Translations under genes and position numbers: made by a program | Source of the DNA: Acidobacteriota bacterium | GTDB lineage: Bacteria; Acidobacteriota; Terriglobia; Bryobacterales; UBA6623 | Direction: 5' to 3' | DNA length: 64,000 nucleotides | Assembly: GCA_016125275.1 (NCBI GenBank) | Contig: WGMB01000007.1 | Coordinates: 124,001 to 188,000 of the forward strand | Notes under the pieces: generated by a model | Databases searched by the model: none | What the model was told of the DNA's origin: nothing | The model's input: the letters and a program-made list of their open reading frames with translations, nothing else | Shown: positions 7,610-20,083 of the stretch, piece after piece | How the letters are laid out: the number at the start of each line of letters is the position of its first letter | Position numbering within the stretch: position 1 is the first letter of the stretch

Positions 7610-7942
7610 GCCGCTGCGCCGCGGACGGCGCCCGCTCCGCTTCGACCTGCTTCGAGCCCGCGACGGGGTCCCCGCCGCGGGCTCTTCCCTTTCCTGTCCT
7701 CCTATCCCTCGGCCAGCCACCCCTTCTCGAGGGAGCCCTGTAAGCGATCGCACCTGCGGTCACTCTTTCCAAACACCCGTCTTTGCTTTGTGTTTCCTAG
7801 CCCGTGTAAGAGTTTGCATCCCCTCCGAGGCATTTGCTAGGGTCTAGATCAGGCGTAGTGACTCAGGGGTCTTTGCGTCCAAAAACAGCTTGCCATGACT
7901 TCGTTGGTCATGGGTGAAAGAGCCATCCCAAGAGGGGGGATT
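7610..7942. other. intergenic region between the TPR gene and receptor 1
   Basis: 333 bp without a gene. It holds the terminator at 7654-7684. Beyond that I see AT-richer sequence and, just before the receptor start, the purine-rich ribosome site AGAGGGGGGA (7931-7940). No confident -35/-10 pair was found. Confidence 0.6.
7654..7694 (+). terminator. rho-independent-like terminator after the TPR gene
   Basis: GAGCCCGCG (7654-7662) pairs with CGCGGGCTC (7676-7684) and is followed by the pyrimidine tract TTCCCTTTCC. The T-run is interrupted by C, so efficiency is uncertain. Confidence 0.7.
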
Positions 7943-10900
7943 ATGTGGAAAGATTCCGTTCGGTTAGCGGGTCTGCTCCTCGTCGTCGCTGTGACGGCGT
8001 TCGGACAGGCTCAGGGTACGATTCAAGGGGTCGTTAGCGACAACTCGGGCGCCGTCATTCCCGGCGCCACAGTAACAATCACCAATGTGGACACCGGCGT
8101 CGAACGGACGACGCAGTCCAACCAGGTCGGCTTCTACTCGGTTCCGGCGTTGAATCCGGGCCCCTACAAGGCGACGGCGGCGTCCGACGGCTTTGCCCCG
8201 ACGGAGCTGGCGAATCTGCGGCTCGAGGTCAGCCAGACCTTGCGTGCGGACTTCCAGCTCAGCGTCGGTTCGGTCACAGAGGTCGTCGAGGTCTCGGCGG
8301 CGGCGCAGCTCGTGCAGTCGGAGAAGACCGAGGTCGGCCAGGTCATCGATTCCAAGCGCATCCTCGAGATGCCTCTCAATGGTCGGAACTACCTGGAGCT
8401 TGCCAAATTCTCGGTCGGCGTGTTGCCGGCGCGAGACCTGGGCAAGGGCACCCGGCAGGACGGCGAGGGCGGCGGCGAAGGCGGCCTGCTCGCGATGGGC
8501 ATGCACGCCGCCCAGACGAACGTACTGGTCGACGGCGCCGACAACTCGTCGCGCAACTCCGGCGGCGCCCTGGGCTTCCAGGCGCAGGCCACCAAGCCCT
8601 CGGTGGACGCCGTCGGCGAGTTCAAGGTCATTACCAACAACATCAGCGCCGAGTACGGCTACCGCATGGGCGCCAAGGTGATCGTTTCCACCAAGTCCGG
8701 CACCAACAAGCTCCACGGCTCGGCCTACGAGTTCCTGCGCAACTCCAACCTCGACGGCACGAACTTCTTCGCCAACCGCTCGGGAGCTCCGAAGCCGACC
8801 CTGCGCCGCAACCAGTTCGGCGCCACCGTCGGCGGTCCGATTATCAAGAACAAGATGTTCGGCTTCTTCTCCTGGCAGACGACCAAGGAGCGGCTGGGCC
8901 AGAGCTTCCTGTCGTCGGTTCCGACCGCGGCCGTCAAGAACGGCGATTTCTCCGGCGAGCCGAACCCGAACATGGCGATCTATGATCCGCTGACGCTAGC
9001 CGGCGGCAAGCGCGAAGCCTTCCCCAACTTCATGATCCCGTCCACGCGGTTCGACCCGGTCGCCAAGGGCATCGTGGATCTCTATCCCGATCCGAACCTG
9101 GGCGGAACGCGCAACAACTACTTCAACTCGCCCTCGGACACGATCGACTCGAATCAGTACGACATGAAGTGGGACTACAACGTCAACGACAACAATCGAG
9201 CCTTCATCCGCTACTCGATCCGCGACGAGAACGTGCTCAACAACTGCCCCCTGCCGCTGCCGGCCTGCGGCGGTACGGGTCAGACCGTGAAGTTGCCGGG
9301 CAACAACGTGGCGGCGGCGTTCCAGTCGACCTTCGGCGCCTCGATGTTCAACGAGCTGCGCTTCGGCTACACCCACTTCCCGACGGCGTTCGACATCCCG
9401 TTCACGGAGAACCTGAACTCGACCTACGGCATCAAGGGCGCCCCGGGCGACTCGCTCGGCGACGGCCTCGACCAGGGCTTCTCCTTGTTCGTGCCGGGCA
9501 GCAACTTCACCAGCGCCGGTCCGCGGGCGTTCTGGCCGAACATCAACAACTTGGATAACCTGCAGATCTCCGACAACTTCTCGATCATCAAGGGCAACCA
9601 CACGATCAAGCTCGGGTTCGAGTATCGCCGGACCGACGTGCCCCGGTATCCTTCCCGCTTCCGGCGCGGCCAGTTCAACTTCAGCGGTCAGTTCACGGCG
9701 GAACAGCCGGGCAGCGGCGCCAGCCGCGGCGCCACCGGCTCCGGCATGGCGGACATGCTGCTGGGTTGGGCCAATAACGAAACCTGGGGCTTCCCCAACG
9801 GCGAAGAGATCATCTCGCCGTACATGGGCACATTCGTGCAAGACGACTGGAAGGTCACCAACAAGCTGACCATCAACATGGGCATTCGGTACGAGCGGTT
9901 CCTGCCGCCCACGTTCCCGAATCCTTCCACCCAGACGGTGTCGCGCTTCCTGACCGAGATCAACGGCCGTCCGTTCGGCGACGGCGAGGGTCTCCCGGTC
10001 GGAGCTCCGGGCGCTTGGGGTGAGGCCGAGTACCTGCCGTACTTCGTGCAGCCCACCAGCAGCAGTGACTCCGGCGGCAAGACCGACAACAACAACTTCG
10101 CGCCGCGGCTGGGCCTGGCCTACCGCGCGACCGAGAAGACGGTGATCCGCGTCGGCGGAGGGCTGTTCTACGGCGAGTCGGACAACGTGCAGGGCGAGAG
10201 CGCCCGCTTCTTTACCGGCGCTCCGCTGGCGAATGAGTTCAACGCGCAGCAGCCGTTCACGCAGACCTCTCTGTTCGTCAAGGACGGCTTCGCGCCGGTC
10301 ACCCCGGAAGGCTTCCCCGCTCCCGGTCTGAGCGCCACCACGGCCCAGGACGGCGCCTGGCCGCAGTTCTACTCCGGGCAGTGGTTCCTCGATCTGCAGC
10401 AGCAGTTGCCGCTCGACACGCTGCTGACCATCGGCTACAACGGGACCTCGACCTCACAGTTGGCGTCCGGCATCAACATCAACCGGCCCTTGACGCTGGG
10501 CGACGGCTCGGTCAACGTCAACAACCGCCGCATCCGGCCGTTCTTCAACAACGTCAACCTGGTGGGCGCCCAGTTCATGAACGCGAACTACAACTCGCTC
10601 ACGGTCAAGGCCGAAAAGCGCTTGACCAAGGGCTTCACGTTCCTGAGCTCGTTCACCTGGTCGCACAATATCGACTACGGCAACGAGAACCTGTTCCAGG
10701 GAGCGGCCAGCCAGGAGCGCTTCACCTACAACAAGTCGATCGAGCGCGGCAACGCCTCCCTCGACCGGCGCTTGGCGTACGTCCTGAGCACGGTGTACGA
10801 GCTGCCGTTCGGCAAGGGCAAGTCCTTCCTCAACGGCAACGGCGTGGGCCGCTGGGTCTTGGGCGACTGGCAGATCGGCGGCATCCTGTCGCTGCTGCGC

Positions 10901-11302
10901 GGCACCCCGGATACGAACACCTTCAACCAGAACACCACCGGCGTCGGCGGCGCCAACCGCGGCGATGTGGTCCGCGATCCGAACCTGCCGAGCTCGGAGC
11001 GTTCGATCGATCGCTGGTTCGATACCGGCTTCGTGGTGGCGGGCCAGCCCGGCCAACTCGACAACGCCGGCCGCAACCTGATCGTGGGACCGCCGACGCA
11101 CAACTTCGACTTCTCGCTGTCGCGGCGCTTCTTCCTGCCTTTCGAAGGGCACATGATCCAGTTCCGCTTCGAGTCGTTCAACTTCACCAACACGGCCAAC
11201 TTCGGCCGTCCGAACACCGCGGTGGGCAGCGCCAACGCCGGCATCATCACGACTGCCAGCCAGCCGCGCCGCATCCAGTTCGGCCTGAAGTACATCTTCT
11301 AG
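7943..11302 (+). CDS. Oar-like TonB-dependent receptor, copy 1
   Basis: 1119 residues from ATG 7943, which follows a strong GGGGGGA site and gives a signal peptide (SVRLAGLLLVVAVTAFG). An upstream in-frame start at 7895 is less likely because it lacks such a site. After the leader comes a carboxypeptidase-regulatory-like beta domain (about 25-115: TIQGVVSDNSGAVIPGATVTI), then a plug with MPLNGRNYLELAKF and VLVDGADNSSRN, then a long beta-barrel ending FGLKYIF with the terminal aromatic typical of outer-membrane barrels. This Oar-like family is very abundant in Acidobacteriota and is thought to import large substrates with TonB energy; the substrate is unknown. It is a tandem near-copy of the next gene and has its own terminator. 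Confidence 0.93.
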   Translation: MWKDSVRLAGLLLVVAVTAFGQAQGTIQGVVSDNSGAVIPGATVTITNVDTGVERTTQSNQVGFYSVPALNPGPYKATAASDGFAPTELANLRLEVSQTLRADFQLSVGSVTEVVEVSAAAQLVQSEKTEVGQVIDSKRILEMPLNGRNYLELAKFSVGVLPARDLGKGTRQDGEGGGEGGLLAMGMHAAQTNVLVDGADNSSRNSGGALGFQAQATKPSVDAVGEFKVITNNISAEYGYRMGAKVIVSTKSGTNKLHGSAYEFLRNSNLDGTNFFANRSGAPKPTLRRNQFGATVGGPIIKNKMFGFFSWQTTKERLGQSFLSSVPTAAVKNGDFSGEPNPNMAIYDPLTLAGGKREAFPNFMIPSTRFDPVAKGIVDLYPDPNLGGTRNNYFNSPSDTIDSNQYDMKWDYNVNDNNRAFIRYSIRDENVLNNCPLPLPACGGTGQTVKLPGNNVAAAFQSTFGASMFNELRFGYTHFPTAFDIPFTENLNSTYGIKGAPGDSLGDGLDQGFSLFVPGSNFTSAGPRAFWPNINNLDNLQISDNFSIIKGNHTIKLGFEYRRTDVPRYPSRFRRGQFNFSGQFTAEQPGSGASRGATGSGMADMLLGWANNETWGFPNGEEIISPYMGTFVQDDWKVTNKLTINMGIRYERFLPPTFPNPSTQTVSRFLTEINGRPFGDGEGLPVGAPGAWGEAEYLPYFVQPTSSSDSGGKTDNNNFAPRLGLAYRATEKTVIRVGGGLFYGESDNVQGESARFFTGAPLANEFNAQQPFTQTSLFVKDGFAPVTPEGFPAPGLSATTAQDGAWPQFYSGQWFLDLQQQLPLDTLLTIGYNGTSTSQLASGININRPLTLGDGSVNVNNRRIRPFFNNVNLVGAQFMNANYNSLTVKAEKRLTKGFTFLSSFTWSHNIDYGNENLFQGAASQERFTYNKSIERGNASLDRRLAYVLSTVYELPFGKGKSFLNGNGVGRWVLGDWQIGGILSLLRGTPDTNTFNQNTTGVGGANRGDVVRDPNLPSSERSIDRWFDTGFVVAGQPGQLDNAGRNLIVGPPTHNFDFSLSRRFFLPFEGHMIQFRFESFNFTNTANFGRPNTAVGSANAGIITTASQPRRIQFGLKYIF

Positions 11303-11773: not shown

Positions 11774-14700
11774 ATGTGGAACGCAACCGTTCGAGGAGTC
11801 GGACTGTTCCTCGTCGCCGCGATTGCGGCGTTCGGACAGTCTCAGGGAACGATCCAAGGGGTCGTGACCGACGATAGCGCCGCGGTCATTCCGGGCGCAG
11901 AAGTTACGTTGACTAATTTGGACACCGGCGTCGCGCGTACGACGCAGTCCAACCAAGTCGGTTTTTACTCGGTTCCGGGCTTGAACCCGGGGCCCTACAA
12001 GGCGACGGCGACGGCGGAAGGCTTTGCGCCGACCGAGCTGTCGAACCTGCGGCTCGAGGTCGGCCAGACCTTGCGCGCGGACTTTCAGCTCAGCCTCGGT
12101 TCGGTGACCGAGGTCGTCGAAGTTTCGGCCGCCGCTCAGTTGGTGCAGTCAGAAAAGACGGAAGTCGGTCAGGTGATCGACTCCAAGCGCATCCTCGAGA
12201 TGCCGCTCAACGGCCGCAACTACCTGGAGCTTGCCAAGTTCTCCGTCGGCGTGTTGCCGGCGCGCGACCTGGGCAAGGGCACCCGCCAGGACGGCGAGAG
12301 CGGCGGCGAAGGCGGCCTGCTCGCGATGGGCATGCACGCCGCCCAGACCAACGTGCTGCTGGACGGCGCGGACAACTCCTCGCGCAACTCCGGCGGCGCC
12401 CTGGGCTTCCAGGCGCAGGCCACCAAGCCTTCGGTCGACGCCGTGGGCGAGTTCCGCGTCATCACCAACAACATCAGCGCCGAGTACGGCTACCGTATGG
12501 GCGCCAAGGTCATCGTTTCCACCAAGTCCGGCACCAACCAGTTGCACGGCTCGGCTTACGAGTTCCTGCGCAACTCCAGCCTCGACGGCTCGAACTTCTT
12601 CGCCAACCGCTCCGGCGCGCCCAAGCCGACCCTGCGCCGCAACCAGTTCGGCGCCACCGTCGGCGGCCCGATCATCAAGAACAAGATGTTCGGCTTCTTC
12701 TCGTGGCAGACGACCAAACAGCGCCTGGGCCAGAGCTTCCTGTCGTCGGTTCCGACCGCGGCGGTCAAGAACGGCGACTTCTCCGGCGAGCCGAACCCGA
12801 ACATGGCGATCTTCGATCCGCTGACGCTGGCCGGCGGCAAGCGCACGGCTTTCCCGAACTTCATGATTCCCTCGACGCGGTTCGACCCGGTCGCCAAGGG
12901 CATCGTGGACCTGTACCCCGATCCGAACCTGCCCGGAACGCGCAACAACTACTTCTACTCGCCGTCGGACACCATCGACTCGAATCAGTACGACATGAAG
13001 TGGGACTACAACGTCAACGACGCCCACCGCGCCTTCATTCGCTACTCGATTCGTGACGAGAACGTGCTCAACAACTGCCCGCTGCCGTTGCCGGCCTGCG
13101 GCGGTACGGGTCAGACCGTGAAGCTGCCGGGCAACAACGTGGCGGCGGCGTTCCAGTCGACCTTCGGCGCCTCGATGTTCAACGAGCTGCGCTTCGGCTA
13201 CACGCACTTCCCCACCGCGTTCGACATCCCGTTCACCGAGAACCTGAATTCGAGCCTCGGCATCAAGGGCGCCCCGGGCGACTCGCTCGGTGACGGCCTG
13301 GATCAGGGCTACTCGCTGTTCGTGCCGGGCAGCAACTTCACCAGCGTCGGCCCGCGGGCGTTCTGGCCGAACATCAACAACCTGGATAACCTGCAGATCT
13401 CGGACAACTTCGCGATCATCAAGGGCAACCACACGGTGAAGTTCGGCGTGGAGTACCGCCGCACCGACGTGCCGCGCTACCCGTCGCGCTTCCGCCGCGG
13501 TCAGTTCAACTTCAACGGCCAGTTCACTGCCGAGCAGCCGGCCAGCGGCGCCAGCCGCGGCGCCACGGGCTCGAGCATGGCGGACATGCTGTTGGGCTGG
13601 GCCAACAACGAGACCTGGGGCTTCCCCAACGGCGAAGAGATCATCTCGCCCTACCTCGGCACGTTCGTGCAGGACGACTGGAAGGTCACCAACAAGCTGA
13701 CCATCAACATGGGCATCCGCTATGAGCGGTTCCTGCCCCCGACGTTCCCGAATCCTTCCACCCAGACGGTGTCGCGCTTCCTGACCGAGATCAACGGCCG
13801 TCCGTTCGGCGACGGCGAGGGACTTCCCGTCGGCGCCCCCGGCGCCTGGGGTGAAGCCCAGTACCTGCCGTACTTCGTGCAGCCGACCAGCAGCAGCGAT
13901 TCCGGCGGCAAGACCGACAACAACAACTTCGCGCCGCGGTTGGGCATCGCCTACCGCGTGACCGAGAAGACCGTGCTCCGCGCCGGCGGCGGCATCTTCT
14001 ACGGCGAGTCCGACAACGTGCAGGGCGAGAGCGCCCGCTTCTTCACCGGCGCTCCGCTGGCGAACGAGTTCACCGCGCAGCAGCCCTTCACTCAGACCTC
14101 TCTGTTCGTGCAGGACGGCTTCGCGCCGGTCACCCCCCAGGGCTTCCCGGCTCCGGGTCTGGGCGCCACGACCGCCAAGGACGGCGCCTGGCCGCAGTTC
14201 TACTCCGGGCAGTGGTTCTTCGACCTGCAGCAGCAGTTGCCGTTCGACACGCTGCTGACCGTCGGCTACAACGGGACGTCGACGTCGCAGTTGGCCTCCG
14301 GCATCAATATCAACCGGCCCGTGACGCTGGGCGACGGTTCGATCAACGTCAACAACCGCCGCATCCGGCCGTTCTTCAACGGCGTGACGATGGTCGGTTC
14401 GCAGTTCAACAACGCCAACTACAACTCGCTGACGGTGAAGGCCGAGAAACGCCTGACCAAGGGCTTCACCTTCCTGAGCTCGTTCACCTGGTCGCACAAC
14501 ATCGACTACGGCGACGAGAACCTGTTCCAGGGAGACACCGGCCAGGAGCGCTACACCTACAACCAGTCGATCGAGCGCGGCAACGCCTCCCTCGACCGGC
14601 GCTTGGCGTACGTGCTCAGCACCGTCTACGAGCTGCCGTTCGGCAAGGGCAAGTCCTACCTCAACGGCAACGGCGTGGGCCGCTGGATCCTGGGCGACTG

Positions 14701-15133
14701 GCAGATCGGCGGCATCCTGTCGCTACTGCGCGGCACCCCCGACAGCCACACCTTCAACGCCGACACCACCGGCGTGGGCGGCGCCAACCGCGGCGACGTG
14801 GTCAGCAACCCGAACCTGCCTGCCTCGGAGCGCACGATCGATCGCTGGTTCAACACCAGCTTCGTGACGGCGGGCCAGCCCTTCCAACTCGACAACGCCG
14901 GTCGTAACCTGATCGTGGGACCGCCCACCCAGAACTTCGACTTCTCGTTGTCGCGGCGCTTCTTCCTGCCCTTCGAGGGCCACTCGCTCCAGTTCCGGTT
15001 CGAGTCGTTCAACTTCACCAACCACCCGAACTTCGGCCGTCCGAACACCGCGGTGGGCAGCGCCAACGCCGGCGTCATCACCTCGGCTTCGGAGCCGCGG
15101 CGCATTCAGTTCGGTCTGAAGTACATCTTCTAG
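11774..15133 (+). CDS. Oar-like TonB-dependent receptor, copy 2
   Basis: 1119 residues, exactly the length of copy 1 and collinear with it along the whole protein with no visible indel. It shares the signal peptide (GVGLFLVAAIAAFG), the carboxypeptidase-regulatory-like domain, the plug (MPLNGRNYLELAKF, LLDGADNSSRN) and a barrel ending FGLKYIF. Substitutions are scattered and mostly conservative; clusters lie in barrel segments such as VTMVGSQFNN versus VNLVGAQFMN. Tandem duplication is the simplest origin. Different ligands or expression conditions are possible. It ends 40 bp before a strong terminator. Confidence 0.93.
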   Translation: MWNATVRGVGLFLVAAIAAFGQSQGTIQGVVTDDSAAVIPGAEVTLTNLDTGVARTTQSNQVGFYSVPGLNPGPYKATATAEGFAPTELSNLRLEVGQTLRADFQLSLGSVTEVVEVSAAAQLVQSEKTEVGQVIDSKRILEMPLNGRNYLELAKFSVGVLPARDLGKGTRQDGESGGEGGLLAMGMHAAQTNVLLDGADNSSRNSGGALGFQAQATKPSVDAVGEFRVITNNISAEYGYRMGAKVIVSTKSGTNQLHGSAYEFLRNSSLDGSNFFANRSGAPKPTLRRNQFGATVGGPIIKNKMFGFFSWQTTKQRLGQSFLSSVPTAAVKNGDFSGEPNPNMAIFDPLTLAGGKRTAFPNFMIPSTRFDPVAKGIVDLYPDPNLPGTRNNYFYSPSDTIDSNQYDMKWDYNVNDAHRAFIRYSIRDENVLNNCPLPLPACGGTGQTVKLPGNNVAAAFQSTFGASMFNELRFGYTHFPTAFDIPFTENLNSSLGIKGAPGDSLGDGLDQGYSLFVPGSNFTSVGPRAFWPNINNLDNLQISDNFAIIKGNHTVKFGVEYRRTDVPRYPSRFRRGQFNFNGQFTAEQPASGASRGATGSSMADMLLGWANNETWGFPNGEEIISPYLGTFVQDDWKVTNKLTINMGIRYERFLPPTFPNPSTQTVSRFLTEINGRPFGDGEGLPVGAPGAWGEAQYLPYFVQPTSSSDSGGKTDNNNFAPRLGIAYRVTEKTVLRAGGGIFYGESDNVQGESARFFTGAPLANEFTAQQPFTQTSLFVQDGFAPVTPQGFPAPGLGATTAKDGAWPQFYSGQWFFDLQQQLPFDTLLTVGYNGTSTSQLASGININRPVTLGDGSINVNNRRIRPFFNGVTMVGSQFNNANYNSLTVKAEKRLTKGFTFLSSFTWSHNIDYGDENLFQGDTGQERYTYNQSIERGNASLDRRLAYVLSTVYELPFGKGKSYLNGNGVGRWILGDWQIGGILSLLRGTPDSHTFNADTTGVGGANRGDVVSNPNLPASERTIDRWFNTSFVTAGQPFQLDNAGRNLIVGPPTQNFDFSLSRRFFLPFEGHSLQFRFESFNFTNHPNFGRPNTAVGSANAGVITSASEPRRIQFGLKYIF

Positions 15134-15209: not shown

Positions 15210-16907
15210 CTAGGAGAAGCGGCGCCGGGCGACGTGCTCGCGGGCGCGGGCGGCGGTCTTTTGGTCGATGCGGCCGTCGGCGGCGTAGTACTCGATCATC
15301 TCGCTCACGTTGTAGAGCGCATGGACGGGATAGCCCTGCTCGCGCAGAATCCTGGCGCCGCCCTGCTCGCGGTCCACCACCACCAGGATGCGGGTCACTG
15401 ACAGGCCGTCCTTGGCCAGCTCTTCGATCGACCACAGCTTGGTCCGGCCGGAAGCCATCACGTCGTCGAGGAGCGTGATCTCCCGGCTGCGGTCGCCGAT
15501 GCCCATATAGGCGCTGGCGCCGGAGCGGCCGCCGGGGTAGTTGGCCGGCTTCTTGCGGAGCTGCCCGTAGGCGATGGCGCGGTCGCGGCCTCGCGAGGCC
15601 AGCGCCGTGGCCAGGGCGATGGGCGTGGCCGTGTCCGGAATGCCGATGACCTGCTGCGCTGCCTCCGGCGGAGCCAGCTCGCAGATCTTGTCGCACAGCG
15701 CCTTGCCCAACGCCGACAGCGTCTCCAGGTGATCGTAGAGCCTGTGCCGCAGGTCGATGAAGATCGGCGTATGCAGGGCGTACTCTTCGGCCACGCGGTC
15801 GCCGAACAGCACCAGGCCCTCGTCCCAAAAGGCTTCCAGCAGCGGATCGGCAGCGGTCTTGGGCGCGGCGGACATCGAGAGGTAGCGGCGTTCGCCGGCG
15901 CGACGGCGCAGGTACTCGATCACCGGCGGCGGCACGGCCAAGGCTTCCAGTCTAGTATCGTCGTCGAGCTCCAGGCGGAGGGAGTCGCTTTGCCCGGCCG
16001 ACACCTTGCGGGGCCAGTCCGGCTCGCCCAGCAGCACCCGCCCCAGCCCGATCAGCGCCGGGCCTTGCTCCAGCGCCCGGACGCCCTGCTCGGGCAGCCC
16101 CAGGCCTCCCACTGCCATCACCGCGCAACGCTCCCCCAGGCTCTCGGCCAGCGCCGCGGCGCGCGGCCTGGCGTCGTCCGGGTCGCGCACGGAGCCCGCA
16201 AAGTAGTCCTTGGCGGCTACATCCAGCGCTTCCACGCCGGCCGCGCACAGCAGCTCCGCCAGCTCGAGCGTCTGGTCGAGGGCGATGCCGCCTTCCCCGG
16301 GCTCCTCGGGGTCGAGACGGTACCAGCAGGGCCCGCCGAAGGCCTCGCACACCGCTTCGACCACGGCTCGGGGAAACCGCGCGCGGTCCGCCAGCCGCGG
16401 TCCGCCCCAACGCCAAGCGCGGCTGTTGGTCTTGGCCGAGAAGAGCTGCTGGAGCAGCTCGCGGTGGCCGCCATGCAGCGCCACTCCGTCGAAGCCAGCT
16501 TGGCGGACGCGCCGCGCGGCGGCCGAGAAGGACCCGATCAGCCGGGCCGCGTCGGCCTCGTCGAGCGAGCCCGCGCCGGCGCCGGCGTGCGAGAGCTGTG
16601 CGATCGCCAACGCGCCGCCCTCGCGGATCGCCGCCGCGCAGCGCTCCAGCGACCCCGTCAGGCCGTCGTGGTCGCAGCGCCAGTTGCCCGGGAACGCCAC
16701 GCCGTCCTCGGCGACGGCGCAGCCGGCCGTCACGATCGCAGCCAGCCCGCCCTCGGCCCGGCGGCGGTAGTAGGCCAACTCCGACGCTCCCGCCGAGCCG
16801 TCGGCGTCGGCCCCGAAGGTCGGCATCGGCGCCATCACCAGGCGGTTCTTCAGGAGCTTGCCCGACCGCGGCAGCCGGAACGGCTCGAACAGCTTCGCAA
16901 AGCTCAC
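15210..16907 (-). CDS. fusion of an Old Yellow Enzyme-like flavin oxidoreductase and an orotate-phosphoribosyltransferase-like domain
   Basis: 565 residues in one uninterrupted frame. Residues 1-343 form an Old Yellow Enzyme-like FMN barrel: KNRLVMAPM at 20-28, AQLSHAG at 103-109, the active-site pair HGGH at 145-148, LLQQLFSAKTNSR at 151-163, and the C-terminal phosphate motif LGRVLLGEPDWPRK at 288-301. The usual YGGS-N-R block is altered (WGGPRLADRARF). Residues 344-565 resemble orotate phosphoribosyltransferase: IDLRHRLY at 384-391, IPDTATPIALATALA, the loop LRKKPANYPGG near 450-460, the PRPP motif ITLLDDVMASGRTK at 477-490 and DREQGG at 512-517. In the loop the second catalytic Lys of OPRT is replaced. 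Start ATG 16907 lies 4 bp from the acyl-CoA ligase stop, so the two are likely co-transcribed. What the enzyme does is unknown; coupling a flavin redox step to nucleotide formation is an inference. Confidence 0.85.
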   Translation of the reverse strand: MSFAKLFEPFRLPRSGKLLKNRLVMAPMPTFGADADGSAGASELAYYRRRAEGGLAAIVTAGCAVAEDGVAFPGNWRCDHDGLTGSLERCAAAIREGGALAIAQLSHAGAGAGSLDEADAARLIGSFSAAARRVRQAGFDGVALHGGHRELLQQLFSAKTNSRAWRWGGPRLADRARFPRAVVEAVCEAFGGPCWYRLDPEEPGEGGIALDQTLELAELLCAAGVEALDVAAKDYFAGSVRDPDDARPRAAALAESLGERCAVMAVGGLGLPEQGVRALEQGPALIGLGRVLLGEPDWPRKVSAGQSDSLRLELDDDTRLEALAVPPPVIEYLRRRAGERRYLSMSAAPKTAADPLLEAFWDEGLVLFGDRVAEEYALHTPIFIDLRHRLYDHLETLSALGKALCDKICELAPPEAAQQVIGIPDTATPIALATALASRGRDRAIAYGQLRKKPANYPGGRSGASAYMGIGDRSREITLLDDVMASGRTKLWSIEELAKDGLSVTRILVVVDREQGGARILREQGYPVHALYNVSEMIEYYAADGRIDQKTAARAREHVARRRFS

Positions 16908-16911
16908 CCGT

Positions 16912-18525
16912 TCATCCTTGCACGCGCTTGGCGAGCCCGGCCCAGTACGGCTCCCGCAGAGCCCGCTTGAGGATCTTGCCGGTGGCGCCCTTCGGCAGCT
17001 CGTCGCGGATCTCCACCGAGCTGGGGACCTTGAAGTGCGCCAGGTGCGCCCGCACGTGATCGCGAATCTCCTGCTCGGTCGCGGTGCAGCCGGGCTTGAG
17101 CGTCACGATCGCCTTGGGCGTCTCGCCCCACTTGGCGTCCGGCACCCCGATGACGGCGCACTCGCCCACCGCGGCGAGCTCTGCGATGACCTTTTCGATC
17201 TCCAGCGATGAGATGTTCTCGCCGCCGGAGATGATGATGTCCTTCTTGCGGTCCACGATCAGGACGTAGCGCTCGGAGTCCCAGCAAGCCATGTCGCCGG
17301 TCCGGAGCCACGTCCCATCCATGGCCTCGGCGGTCGCCTCGGGCTCGGCCCAGTAGCCGTCCATCACCAGGTCGCCGCGAATCTGCACCTCGCCGATGGT
17401 GTGGAGGTCGCGCGGAACCTCCGCGCCCTGCTCGTCCACCACGCGCATCTCCGCGCCGGGCAGGCCCACGCCCGTCATCGCCTGCCGCCGGATGCGCTCC
17501 TCGTCGTCCAGAGGCCCCAGCGAGGACTTGGCATGGGCCGTGGCCGCTACCGGGCCGGATTCGGTCAAGCCGTAGCCGGCGACCGCCCGGCAGCCCAGCC
17601 GCTGCTCCAGCGCGCGGATCAGCGCCGGCGACGAGGCCGCCCCGCCGAGGGTGATCTCCTCCAGGCTCGACAGATCGTAGCGGTCCAGCTCCTCGCAATG
17701 CAGCAAAGCGGTCGCCATCGTCGGCACCATCGAGAACGACGTCACGCCCTCGCGCTCGATCAGCTCGCAGACGACCTTCGGCTCAAAGCGCTTCAGCATC
17801 ACGTGGCGTCCGCCCACCAGCGTGACCGTGTGCGCGCGGCCCCAGCCGTTGGCGTGGAACAGCGGGATCGAGTGCATCTCCACCCGCTTGTCGGCCGCCC
17901 TGAGCCCGTCGAGCCGCTGCGCCCCCAGCAGCACCCCGATCGCGTGCATGTAGAGCGTACGGTGGCTCAGCATCACGCCCTTGGGGCGGCCGGTGGAGCC
18001 GCTGGTGTAGAACAGCTCCGCGATGGCGTCTTCGTCGTAGCCGGTGAAGTCCGGCTCGCTCGGCTCGGCCGCGGCGAGCAGCCCCTCATAGCCGGGCCGT
18101 TCGACCCAGTCGGGCAGGTCGGCGCGCTCCTGCAACGAGAGCCAGCGCAGCTCCGGGCGCTGCGCCCGCAATGCTTCCGCCAGGGGCAGAAACTCCGGGT
18201 CGAACAGCACCAGCTTGGAGCCGGAGTGCCGCAGGATATAGGTCTGCTCTTCCGGCGCCAGCCGGACGTTCAATGACAGCAGGATCGCCCGGGCCATCGG
18301 CGCGCCGTAGTAGAGCTCCAGCAGGTGGTGGCAATTGAAGCTCAGGCTCGCCACCCGGTCGCCCGGGCCGATCCCCAGCGCCTTCAGCCCGGCGGCCAGT
18401 CGGCAGGTTCGGTCCAGGAATTCGGAGTAGGGGATGCGCCGGTCGCCGTCCACCACGCCGACCTTCGAGGGGTACTCCTGCGCGGCGCGCAACAGGCAGC
18501 GGAGGGGAGTCAACGGTAGCTTCAT
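16912..18525 (-). CDS. fatty acyl-CoA ligase (ANL superfamily)
   Basis: 537 residues, full length for an acyl-CoA synthetase, which activates a carboxylic acid with ATP and then CoA. The AMP-binding motif YTSGSTGRPKGV is near residue 175, followed by GYGLTESGPV, the hinge-region TGDMACWD and IVDRKKDIIISGGENIS, and the catalytic C-terminal Lys in LPKGATGKILKR. The sequence looks closest to medium/long-chain acid ligases, but chain length cannot be fixed. It is 4 bp upstream of the OYE-OPRT fusion gene and 97 bp downstream of the FGE-AMIN gene, all on the same strand. Confidence 0.9.
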   Translation of the reverse strand: MKLPLTPLRCLLRAAQEYPSKVGVVDGDRRIPYSEFLDRTCRLAAGLKALGIGPGDRVASLSFNCHHLLELYYGAPMARAILLSLNVRLAPEEQTYILRHSGSKLVLFDPEFLPLAEALRAQRPELRWLSLQERADLPDWVERPGYEGLLAAAEPSEPDFTGYDEDAIAELFYTSGSTGRPKGVMLSHRTLYMHAIGVLLGAQRLDGLRAADKRVEMHSIPLFHANGWGRAHTVTLVGGRHVMLKRFEPKVVCELIEREGVTSFSMVPTMATALLHCEELDRYDLSSLEEITLGGAASSPALIRALEQRLGCRAVAGYGLTESGPVAATAHAKSSLGPLDDEERIRRQAMTGVGLPGAEMRVVDEQGAEVPRDLHTIGEVQIRGDLVMDGYWAEPEATAEAMDGTWLRTGDMACWDSERYVLIVDRKKDIIISGGENISSLEIEKVIAELAAVGECAVIGVPDAKWGETPKAIVTLKPGCTATEQEIRDHVRAHLAHFKVPSSVEIRDELPKGATGKILKRALREPYWAGLAKRVQG

Positions 18526-18622: not shown

Positions 18623-19888
18623 TTAGGGTTTGGGCCGCAATTGGATGCGCAGGCCCGAGGCCGAGGCGTCCACCGAGGCGTCCATCGGCTTCTCGAGGTC
18701 GATGACGACGCGCACCGTCGGCGGGTCGAGCTTGAACTGCGAATAGCGTACGCGCTGCACGCCGTTGCGGCCGACCTCGACGGCGCCGACCTTGCGGTCG
18801 GTCGTCAGGGTTCCGCCGGGCAGGTCCACGACCAGCCGCTCCGGGCTCCGCAGCGCCATGGTCTTGTACTGGGCGGCGCCGCTGGAGGCGAGCAGCACGC
18901 TGACCCCGTCGCCGGCCTCCTCGAACGAGACCGCCGTGACGTCGACGCCTCCCGTGGCGGGCGGCGGAGCCGGCGGACGGCTCTCCGCGGCCGGCTTCGG
19001 CGCGGGTTTGGGCGCCGGTTTGGGGGCTGCGCTCGGCGCGGGCCGAGCCGGCGGCGGGCCTTCGGCCTTGGCCGCCGTGCGGACGACCGTCGGCTGGGCG
19101 GCCAGGGCTCGGTCGGCGCCGCCCGAGGGAGCCTTGGGGGCCGGTTCGGCCTTGGTCAGCGTGGGAGGAGGCGCCTCGCCTTGCAGCGGACGGGCGATGC
19201 GGAAGGTGATGGAGGCGCTGCGCGTGTCCGGGCGAGCGCTGCCGCGGTTGAAGACCGTGGCGCTCGAGGGGTCGTTGCGGTAGCCGCCGCCGCGCAGCAC
19301 CCGGTACACGCCCCGGTCCGGCCCCCGCGGATCGAGCGCCGGAGCCACCGCGTAGTAGTTCGGGGAGTACCAGTCGGCGGTCCACTCCCACAGGTTGTAG
19401 CCGACCGCCCGCAGGCCGAAGGCGTTCTCCGGCGGCGCGGGCGCCGCGTCGGCGTCGGCGGTTTCGAGCGGCTCTTCGCCCCAGGGGTAGCGCGCGCCGT
19501 CCAAGCCGCCGCGGGCCGCCCGCTCCCACCAAGCTTCGGGGGGCAGGCGGATCTCGAGCCCCGTCCGGGCGCTGAGCCAGGCGCAGTAATCCACGGCGTC
19601 CTGCCAGCTCACGTCGGTGACCGCCGCCGCTGGCGTTTGGTCGCTGCTCACGTGGGCGGGCTTGAACTGCCAGAACTCCTCATTCGTCACCGGTTGGGCG
19701 CCGATCTCGAAGGGAGGCGTGCGGACGCGGTGCGCCGGGCGCTCCCACCCCGCGCCGCGGTTCGAGCCCATCTCGAACTCGCCGGCCGGAATTGAGACCA
19801 TCGCCGGAGCGTCGATTTTTTGGCTTTGCGCGGAACAAAACAGACCGCACGCCAGCGCCAACGCGCAGGCCGATATGGGGCGCTTCAT
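18623..19888 (-). CDS. secreted formylglycine-generating-enzyme-like protein with C-terminal AMIN domain
   Basis: About 421 residues from ATG 19888. The frame is open further upstream to 20071, but only this start, or the adjacent ATG at 19891, gives a signal peptide (MKRPISACALALACGLFCSAQ). Residues about 30-245 are a FGE/sulfatase-modifying-factor domain: MVSIPAGEFEMGS, PVTNEEFWQF, VSWQDAVDYCAWLSARTG, LPPEAWWERAARGG, YPWGEEP and RGGGYRND. The catalytic Cys pair of true FGE is absent near the end (SASITFRIARPL). A Pro/Ala/Lys-rich linker leads to an AMIN domain (about 320-421: VTAVSFEEAGDGVSVLLAS, PERLVVDLPGG), a module that binds the cell wall or periplasmic partners. A structural or binding role is more likely than oxidation. 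It diverges from the TPR gene at 20084. Confidence 0.85.
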   Translation of the reverse strand: MKRPISACALALACGLFCSAQSQKIDAPAMVSIPAGEFEMGSNRGAGWERPAHRVRTPPFEIGAQPVTNEEFWQFKPAHVSSDQTPAAAVTDVSWQDAVDYCAWLSARTGLEIRLPPEAWWERAARGGLDGARYPWGEEPLETADADAAPAPPENAFGLRAVGYNLWEWTADWYSPNYYAVAPALDPRGPDRGVYRVLRGGGYRNDPSSATVFNRGSARPDTRSASITFRIARPLQGEAPPPTLTKAEPAPKAPSGGADRALAAQPTVVRTAAKAEGPPPARPAPSAAPKPAPKPAPKPAAESRPPAPPPATGGVDVTAVSFEEAGDGVSVLLASSGAAQYKTMALRSPERLVVDLPGGTLTTDRKVGAVEVGRNGVQRVRYSQFKLDPPTVRVVIDLEKPMDASVDASASGLRIQLRPKP

Positions 19889-20083
19889 CATGGGCGCTAT
19901 CGATTGTATAACCTTCGTTCTAGGCGGCATAGGAGACGTCGGGTCCCTCCTCCGAGTTTTGCAAGCTCTAGCGAAAAAGAACTTGTAATTTAGGTGACAT
20001 GCCTGAGACTCTGTCTTTAGAGAATTCGTCAGAATCACACTGGACCTAGAGTCCTCCGATGTAGTTCCCAAGGAGTTGAGTCA

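Follow-up and report, generated by a model that had tools for sequence, protein, structure and literature searches.

Can a flavin barrel of the Old Yellow Enzyme (OYE) type and a module resembling orotate phosphoribosyltransferase (OPRT) be parts of one and the same protein, and what might such a protein do? The question is raised by a single gene in the 64,000-nucleotide stretch of acidobacterial DNA analyzed here (the window), for which a preliminary description had proposed an in-frame fusion of the two, of a kind not known to have been described. In the literature searched, we found neither a published fusion of an OYE with a phosphoribosyltransferase (PRTase) nor an earlier account of an operon joining an acyl-CoA ligase with such an OPRT-like gene.

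A Single Frame with Two Folded Modules

The fused coding sequence is found at positions 15210–16907 of the minus strand, encoding 565 amino acids followed by a stop codon, with GTG as its start codon, within a stop-free stretch of 630 codons. Both domains are recognized well above chance, by profiles as well as by folds, and the proposed fusion is real at the level of the frame. At the junction, PPVIEYLRRRAGERRYLS reads through into MSAAPK in a single frame, with no stop between the modules, and the GC3 values of the two halves (0.910 vs. 0.914) match the expectation for one coding frame. The order of the modules, OYE followed by OPRT, is as proposed, while the border needs a correction, the OPRT-like module beginning with Met345 and not at residue 344. 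Residues 338–344 (15876–15896, minus strand) make up the junction, and pLDDT is below 50 over residues 338–350. The full-length AlphaFold2 model consists of two folded modules connected by this uncertain linker (338–350), with a pTM of 0.61 and the placement of one module relative to the other not fixed.

The Flavin Barrel

The N-terminal module, residues 1–307 (15987–16907, minus strand), is an FMN barrel of the YqiG-type branch of OYEs with the lid segment missing, as judged from Pfam, alignments and fold matching. The Oxidored_FMN model (PF00724) is matched with an E value of 9e-42 and 143.9 bits, versus a gathering score of 27, the best stretch extending to residue 307, and comparison with PDB folds returns OYEs (4e-24), with 3l5a from S. 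aureus at the top. The nearest relatives in the plasmid collection, at 34–38% identity, belong to the YqiG-type “NADH-dependent flavin oxidoreductases.” When residues 308–337 (LEALAVPPPVIEYL; 15897–15986, minus strand) were aligned with these plasmid-borne proteins, they matched the C-terminal extension typical of YqiG-type OYEs, a match preferred over an initial assignment of this segment as a class III “Arg finger.”

The barrel had been described as complete, which does not hold, as both the lid segment and the active-site tyrosine are absent. Compared with YqiG-type proteins and with 16 acidobacterial OYEs, approximately 30–40 residues are missing after the third strand of the barrel, between QLSHAG (the QLxHxG motif) and the next helix, the deletion falling at residues 113–114 (16566–16571, minus strand), and the same deletion is found in the only close counterpart of this barrel, a separate OYE encoded by another genome of the order, G002. 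The substrate-binding histidine pair is in place, HGGH occupying residues 145–148 (16464–16475, minus strand) as originally claimed. Position 150, which holds the proton-donor tyrosine of OYEs, is glutamate in the window and tyrosine in G002, and among YqiG-type proteins it is tyrosine, phenylalanine or asparagine. Based on alignments, the window protein keeps His145 and His148, the FMN-contacting Gln104, Arg197 and the GLGR phosphate site, while in G002 the latter reads GLGS, the FMN-phosphate arginine being lost. Judging from these residues, the window barrel should bind FMN and probably differs in its chemistry from a standard ene-reductase. The loss of the tyrosine in the window and of the FMN-phosphate arginine in G002 may reflect lost rather than new OYE function.

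With the YqiG-type branch (3l5a) the window protein shares the barrel, the FMN pocket residues and the C-terminal extension, but those proteins keep the lid and carry HGAHGY/F or HGANGY, whereas the window protein is lidless, carries HGGHRE and is fused to a PRTase. An N-terminal OYE barrel followed by a second module is also known in 2,4-dienoyl-CoA reductase, mycofactocin and bile-acid OYEs, but the second module of those fusions is an Fe-S/FAD/NAD-binding one, not a PRTase.

The OPRT-Like Half and the Canonical Pyrimidine Genes

The C-terminal module, residues 345–565 (15213–15875, minus strand), scores only 13 bits with the Pfam phosphoribosyltransferase model, below its cut-off, while it is recognized by the NCBIfam OPRT models (PRK13809, 2e-14; pyrE, 3e-10) and, when compared alone with PDB sequences, by the OPRT of human UMP synthase (2wns, 6e-17). 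Its AlphaFold2 model has a mean pLDDT of 91.9, and the top 32 PDB matches of a fold search with it are all OPRTs, the best again being 2wns (E value 1.9e-15). The concern that this half may not form a PRTase fold is thus answered. It is, however, no ordinary PyrE, scoring 43.1 bits against the 106.8-bit cut-off of the curated family TIGR00336, versus 114.7 bits for the canonical pyrE of the same genome.

The PRPP-binding loop ITLLDDVMASGRTK is found where it had been placed, at residues 477–490 (15438–15479, minus strand), with DD and SG.T present, and VDREQGG (residues 511–517; 15357–15377, minus strand) contains the invariant Asp-Arg also common to canonical PyrE. Across the OPRT-like family, the PRPP-site residues and this base-proximal Asp-Arg pair are invariant in alignment, and within the order RK, DDV.ASG and VVDR are invariant among proteins of 57–67% identity. 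The catalytic-loop motif RKKPANYPGG (residues 451–460; 15528–15557, minus strand) departs from the RKxxK pattern, the first Arg-Lys being kept and the second lysine, Lys103 of E. coli OPRT, being replaced with alanine. Its absence, already pointed out in the preliminary description, extends to every one of the 17 sequences aligned from the order, in which the loop reads RKxPAxYPGG or RKQRAAYPGG. This loss is probably derived, since several distant members of the family still carry RKEAKVYPG or similar. In E. coli, Lys103 is essential, its acetylation lowering kcat 150–300-fold and preventing complementation (PMC10087573). The equivalent of E. coli Lys26 is lost as well, but this is not diagnostic of altered catalysis and was not counted as further evidence for it, since alanine occupies that position in the canonical PyrE of the genome, too.

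Compared with the UMPS-type OPRTs (human, 2wns; Leishmania UMPS, 3qw4), the OPRT half shares the whole fold, the PRPP loop, the catalytic Arg-Lys and VDREQGG, but differs in lacking the second loop lysine and an OMP decarboxylase fusion, and in being a paralog beside a canonical pyrE. The PyrE of the same genome (C1:254188) belongs to the same superfamily and shares the R, D, G and DR positions, but it is only 20% identical, has the canonical RKEAKGHG loop and scores above the pyrE cut-off. Canonical pyrE and pyrD, which the preliminary description had suggested looking for, are both found elsewhere in the genome of the window, along with pyrF. Another pyrE above the curated cut-off is also encoded in 23 of the 28 genomes carrying the OPRT-like gene; in G372, two pyrE matches fall slightly short of the cut-off, and four genomes (G001, G007, G018, and G396), all of them incomplete assemblies (74–93%), have no pyrE besides the OPRT-like gene. 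The OPRT half is a paralog beside the canonical pyrE and not the pyrE of this genome, and a role for the fused protein in de novo pyrimidine synthesis is unlikely, given the canonical genes elsewhere and the absent loop lysine.

Fused, Split, and Solitary Copies

Of 200 genomes sampled from the order, 19 carry the OPRT-like protein. In 18 of these it is a separate protein of approximately 222 amino acids, 57–67% identical, and only the window presents a fusion, with no second case among the 19 carriers. In G002 the two genes form a split adjacent pair, a separate OYE gene, its product 52% identical to the window barrel, overlapping the ATG of the OPRT-like gene by 11 bases in another frame, while the remaining 17 genomes lack this OYE. 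No OYE of the window/G002 kind was found in any other genome of the 396-genome phylum sample, and the search matches include no further genome of the genus of the window. The OPRT-like family also reaches a second acidobacterial class, in which 9 of 38 genomes encode it at 35–42% identity. In the tree of the OPRT-like proteins, a sister relationship of the window and G002 is neither supported nor rejected. A Hyphomicrobiales metagenome-assembled genome contains a 147-base piece at a contig end (L063, 4001–4147), 82% identical to the OPRT-like protein, which is probably a contamination.

These data do not bear out a new fusion architecture of general occurrence. The fusion is real but, among the genomes surveyed, limited to a single one of Bryobacterales type, and, from the gene arrangements compared, it is a joining of two adjacent operon genes, as the relatives keep the OPRT-like gene separate and G002 holds the overlapping pair. 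As to the argument that an assembly or base-calling error has erased the stop codon that separates two neighboring genes, the separate genes of the relatives and the presence of the fusion in a single genome, known from one assembly, would agree with it. However, no stop closely follows the junction in either of the alternative frames, so that a simple insertion or deletion would not readily hide a split, and the frameshift envisaged in the preliminary description fits poorly; a particular substitution would be needed instead, in an assembly of long contigs (20 contigs, 7.5 Mb, 97.6% complete). We consider such an error highly improbable. A different possibility is that the frame gives rise to two proteins, the OPRT half being also made alone from an internal ATG. 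Met345 does correspond to the first residue of the separately encoded relatives, but it is not preceded by a Shine-Dalgarno-like stretch, nor is there a nearby stop that would allow translational coupling, making internal initiation distinctly unlikely. Since its former start lacks such a stretch, the PRTase half is probably synthesized mostly within the fused protein.

Gene Neighborhood

The fused gene had been said to neighbor an acyl-CoA ligase gene and not a pyrimidine gene, and this is the case. The ligase gene (16912–18525, minus strand; identified through profile matches) is located upstream, separated by 4 bases, and is preceded by a gene for a protein in which a formylglycine-generating-enzyme-like (FGE-sulfatase) domain is fused to an AMIN domain (18623–20071, minus strand; identified through Pfam), a homolog of which is present in G002. 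The window order is thus FGE/AMIN protein, acyl-CoA ligase, 4 bases, OYE-OPRT, and the order in G002 is FGE/AMIN protein, OYE, OPRT-like gene, the latter being followed after 6 bases by an ORF of 593 amino acids (L021, 675–2457 relative to the start of the OPRT-like gene). In four genomes of another family of the order (G005, G007, G009, and G018), an ortholog of the ligase gene directly precedes the OPRT-like gene, with gaps of 7 to approximately 70 bases, and in the distantly related G293, of the other class, a 49%-identical ligase is encoded approximately 2 kb from the OPRT-like gene. The lid-truncated YqiG-type OYE is found directly before the OPRT-like gene in two lineages. Ligase and OPRT-like genes probably represent the older unit, with the OYE gene having come between them. 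The link of the ligase to the OPRT-like gene is suggestive rather than proven, as the remaining neighbors are not the same in all genomes and the ligase is absent from several of them (genus g5). Sulfatase, insulinase and other neighbors were set aside as context evidence due to this variation. A shared pathway for OYE, OPRT and ligase can only be weakly suggested, as the OYE is absent from most genomes carrying the OPRT-like gene, and the ligase from many. One distant OPRT-like gene is positioned tail-to-tail with genes identified by eye as those for an oxidase, apparently of the xanthine dehydrogenase/CO dehydrogenase type, an amidohydrolase and a luciferase-like oxidoreductase (L101:1440–7613), a neighborhood that could hint at heterocycle catabolism.

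Possible Function

Based on the residues kept and lost, the most likely function is a PRPP-dependent reaction of an orotate-like acid, proceeding at a low rate or with another base, combined with a flavin redox step. The fuller reading, to which we give about even odds, is of a real local fusion whose C-terminal half would carry out PRPP chemistry, slowly or on another base, whose N-terminal half would contribute a flavin step, and which would belong to the pathway of the ligase. The C-terminal half would still bind Mg-PRPP, via DDVMASGRTK and Arg451-Lys452, and would probably take a carboxylated N-heterocycle like orotate, as the invariant Asp-Arg suggests; without the loop lysine, it may turn over slowly or use a different base. 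The N-terminal half, keeping the FMN pocket, may carry out a hydride transfer with a substrate that is bulkier or positioned differently, since the lid and the tyrosine are gone. The tether would probably co-localize two steps of a small pathway that includes the ligase rather than create a new reaction. Taken further, a lidless barrel reducing or oxidizing a carboxylated heterocycle, a lysine-less OPRT half adding ribose phosphate, and the ligase might together lead to an undescribed nucleotide-like product, a scenario that we regard as a long shot.

A rather unlikely alternative is decay or lack of catalysis in both halves, with the OPRT-like family acting as a sensor or scaffold that binds PRPP or orotate, and with the OYE as a relic retained through the fusion. 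The absence of the loop lysine across the order, the missing lid and tyrosine in the window and FMN-phosphate arginine in G002, and the 43 bits of the OPRT half, far under the pyrE cut-off, could all be understood this way, but the invariance of RK, DDV.ASG, and VVDR among the diverged proteins of the order fits continued PRPP chemistry, and the OYE frame has stayed open at 52% identity between two genera. The preliminary description favored a bifunctional enzyme, in which the flavin barrel would oxidize a dihydro-base, such as dihydroorotate or similar, to be ribosylated in place by the OPRT half. The two modules do share one chain, and the PRPP loop and the Asp-Arg are kept; against this stand the canonical pyrD, pyrE, and pyrF elsewhere in the genome, the general activity of OYEs as reductases of activated alkenes, and the 17 of 19 genomes of the order in which the PRTase, having no such OYE at its side, does not need it. 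While possible, the proposal finds no support beyond the fusion itself, and we judge it improbable.

The fusion suggests that its two component proteins act together, and so provides a candidate partner for the OPRT paralogs, a small acidobacterial family that has kept the PRPP site and dropped a key loop lysine. If active, these paralogs would either serve as a natural test of the need for the loop lysine or represent phosphoribosyltransferases acting on a new base. The lidless OYE, on its part, represents a minimal ene-reductase scaffold, of interest for open-site chemistry.

Other Features of the Window

A scan against viral contigs returned no match, and no RNA families were found in the window. 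Convergent with the fused gene, two very similar proteins of 1135 and 1119 amino acids are encoded in tandem on the plus strand (7895–11302 and 11774–15133), probably reflecting a duplication; both resemble TonB-dependent receptors whose N-terminus is carboxypeptidase-regulatory-like.
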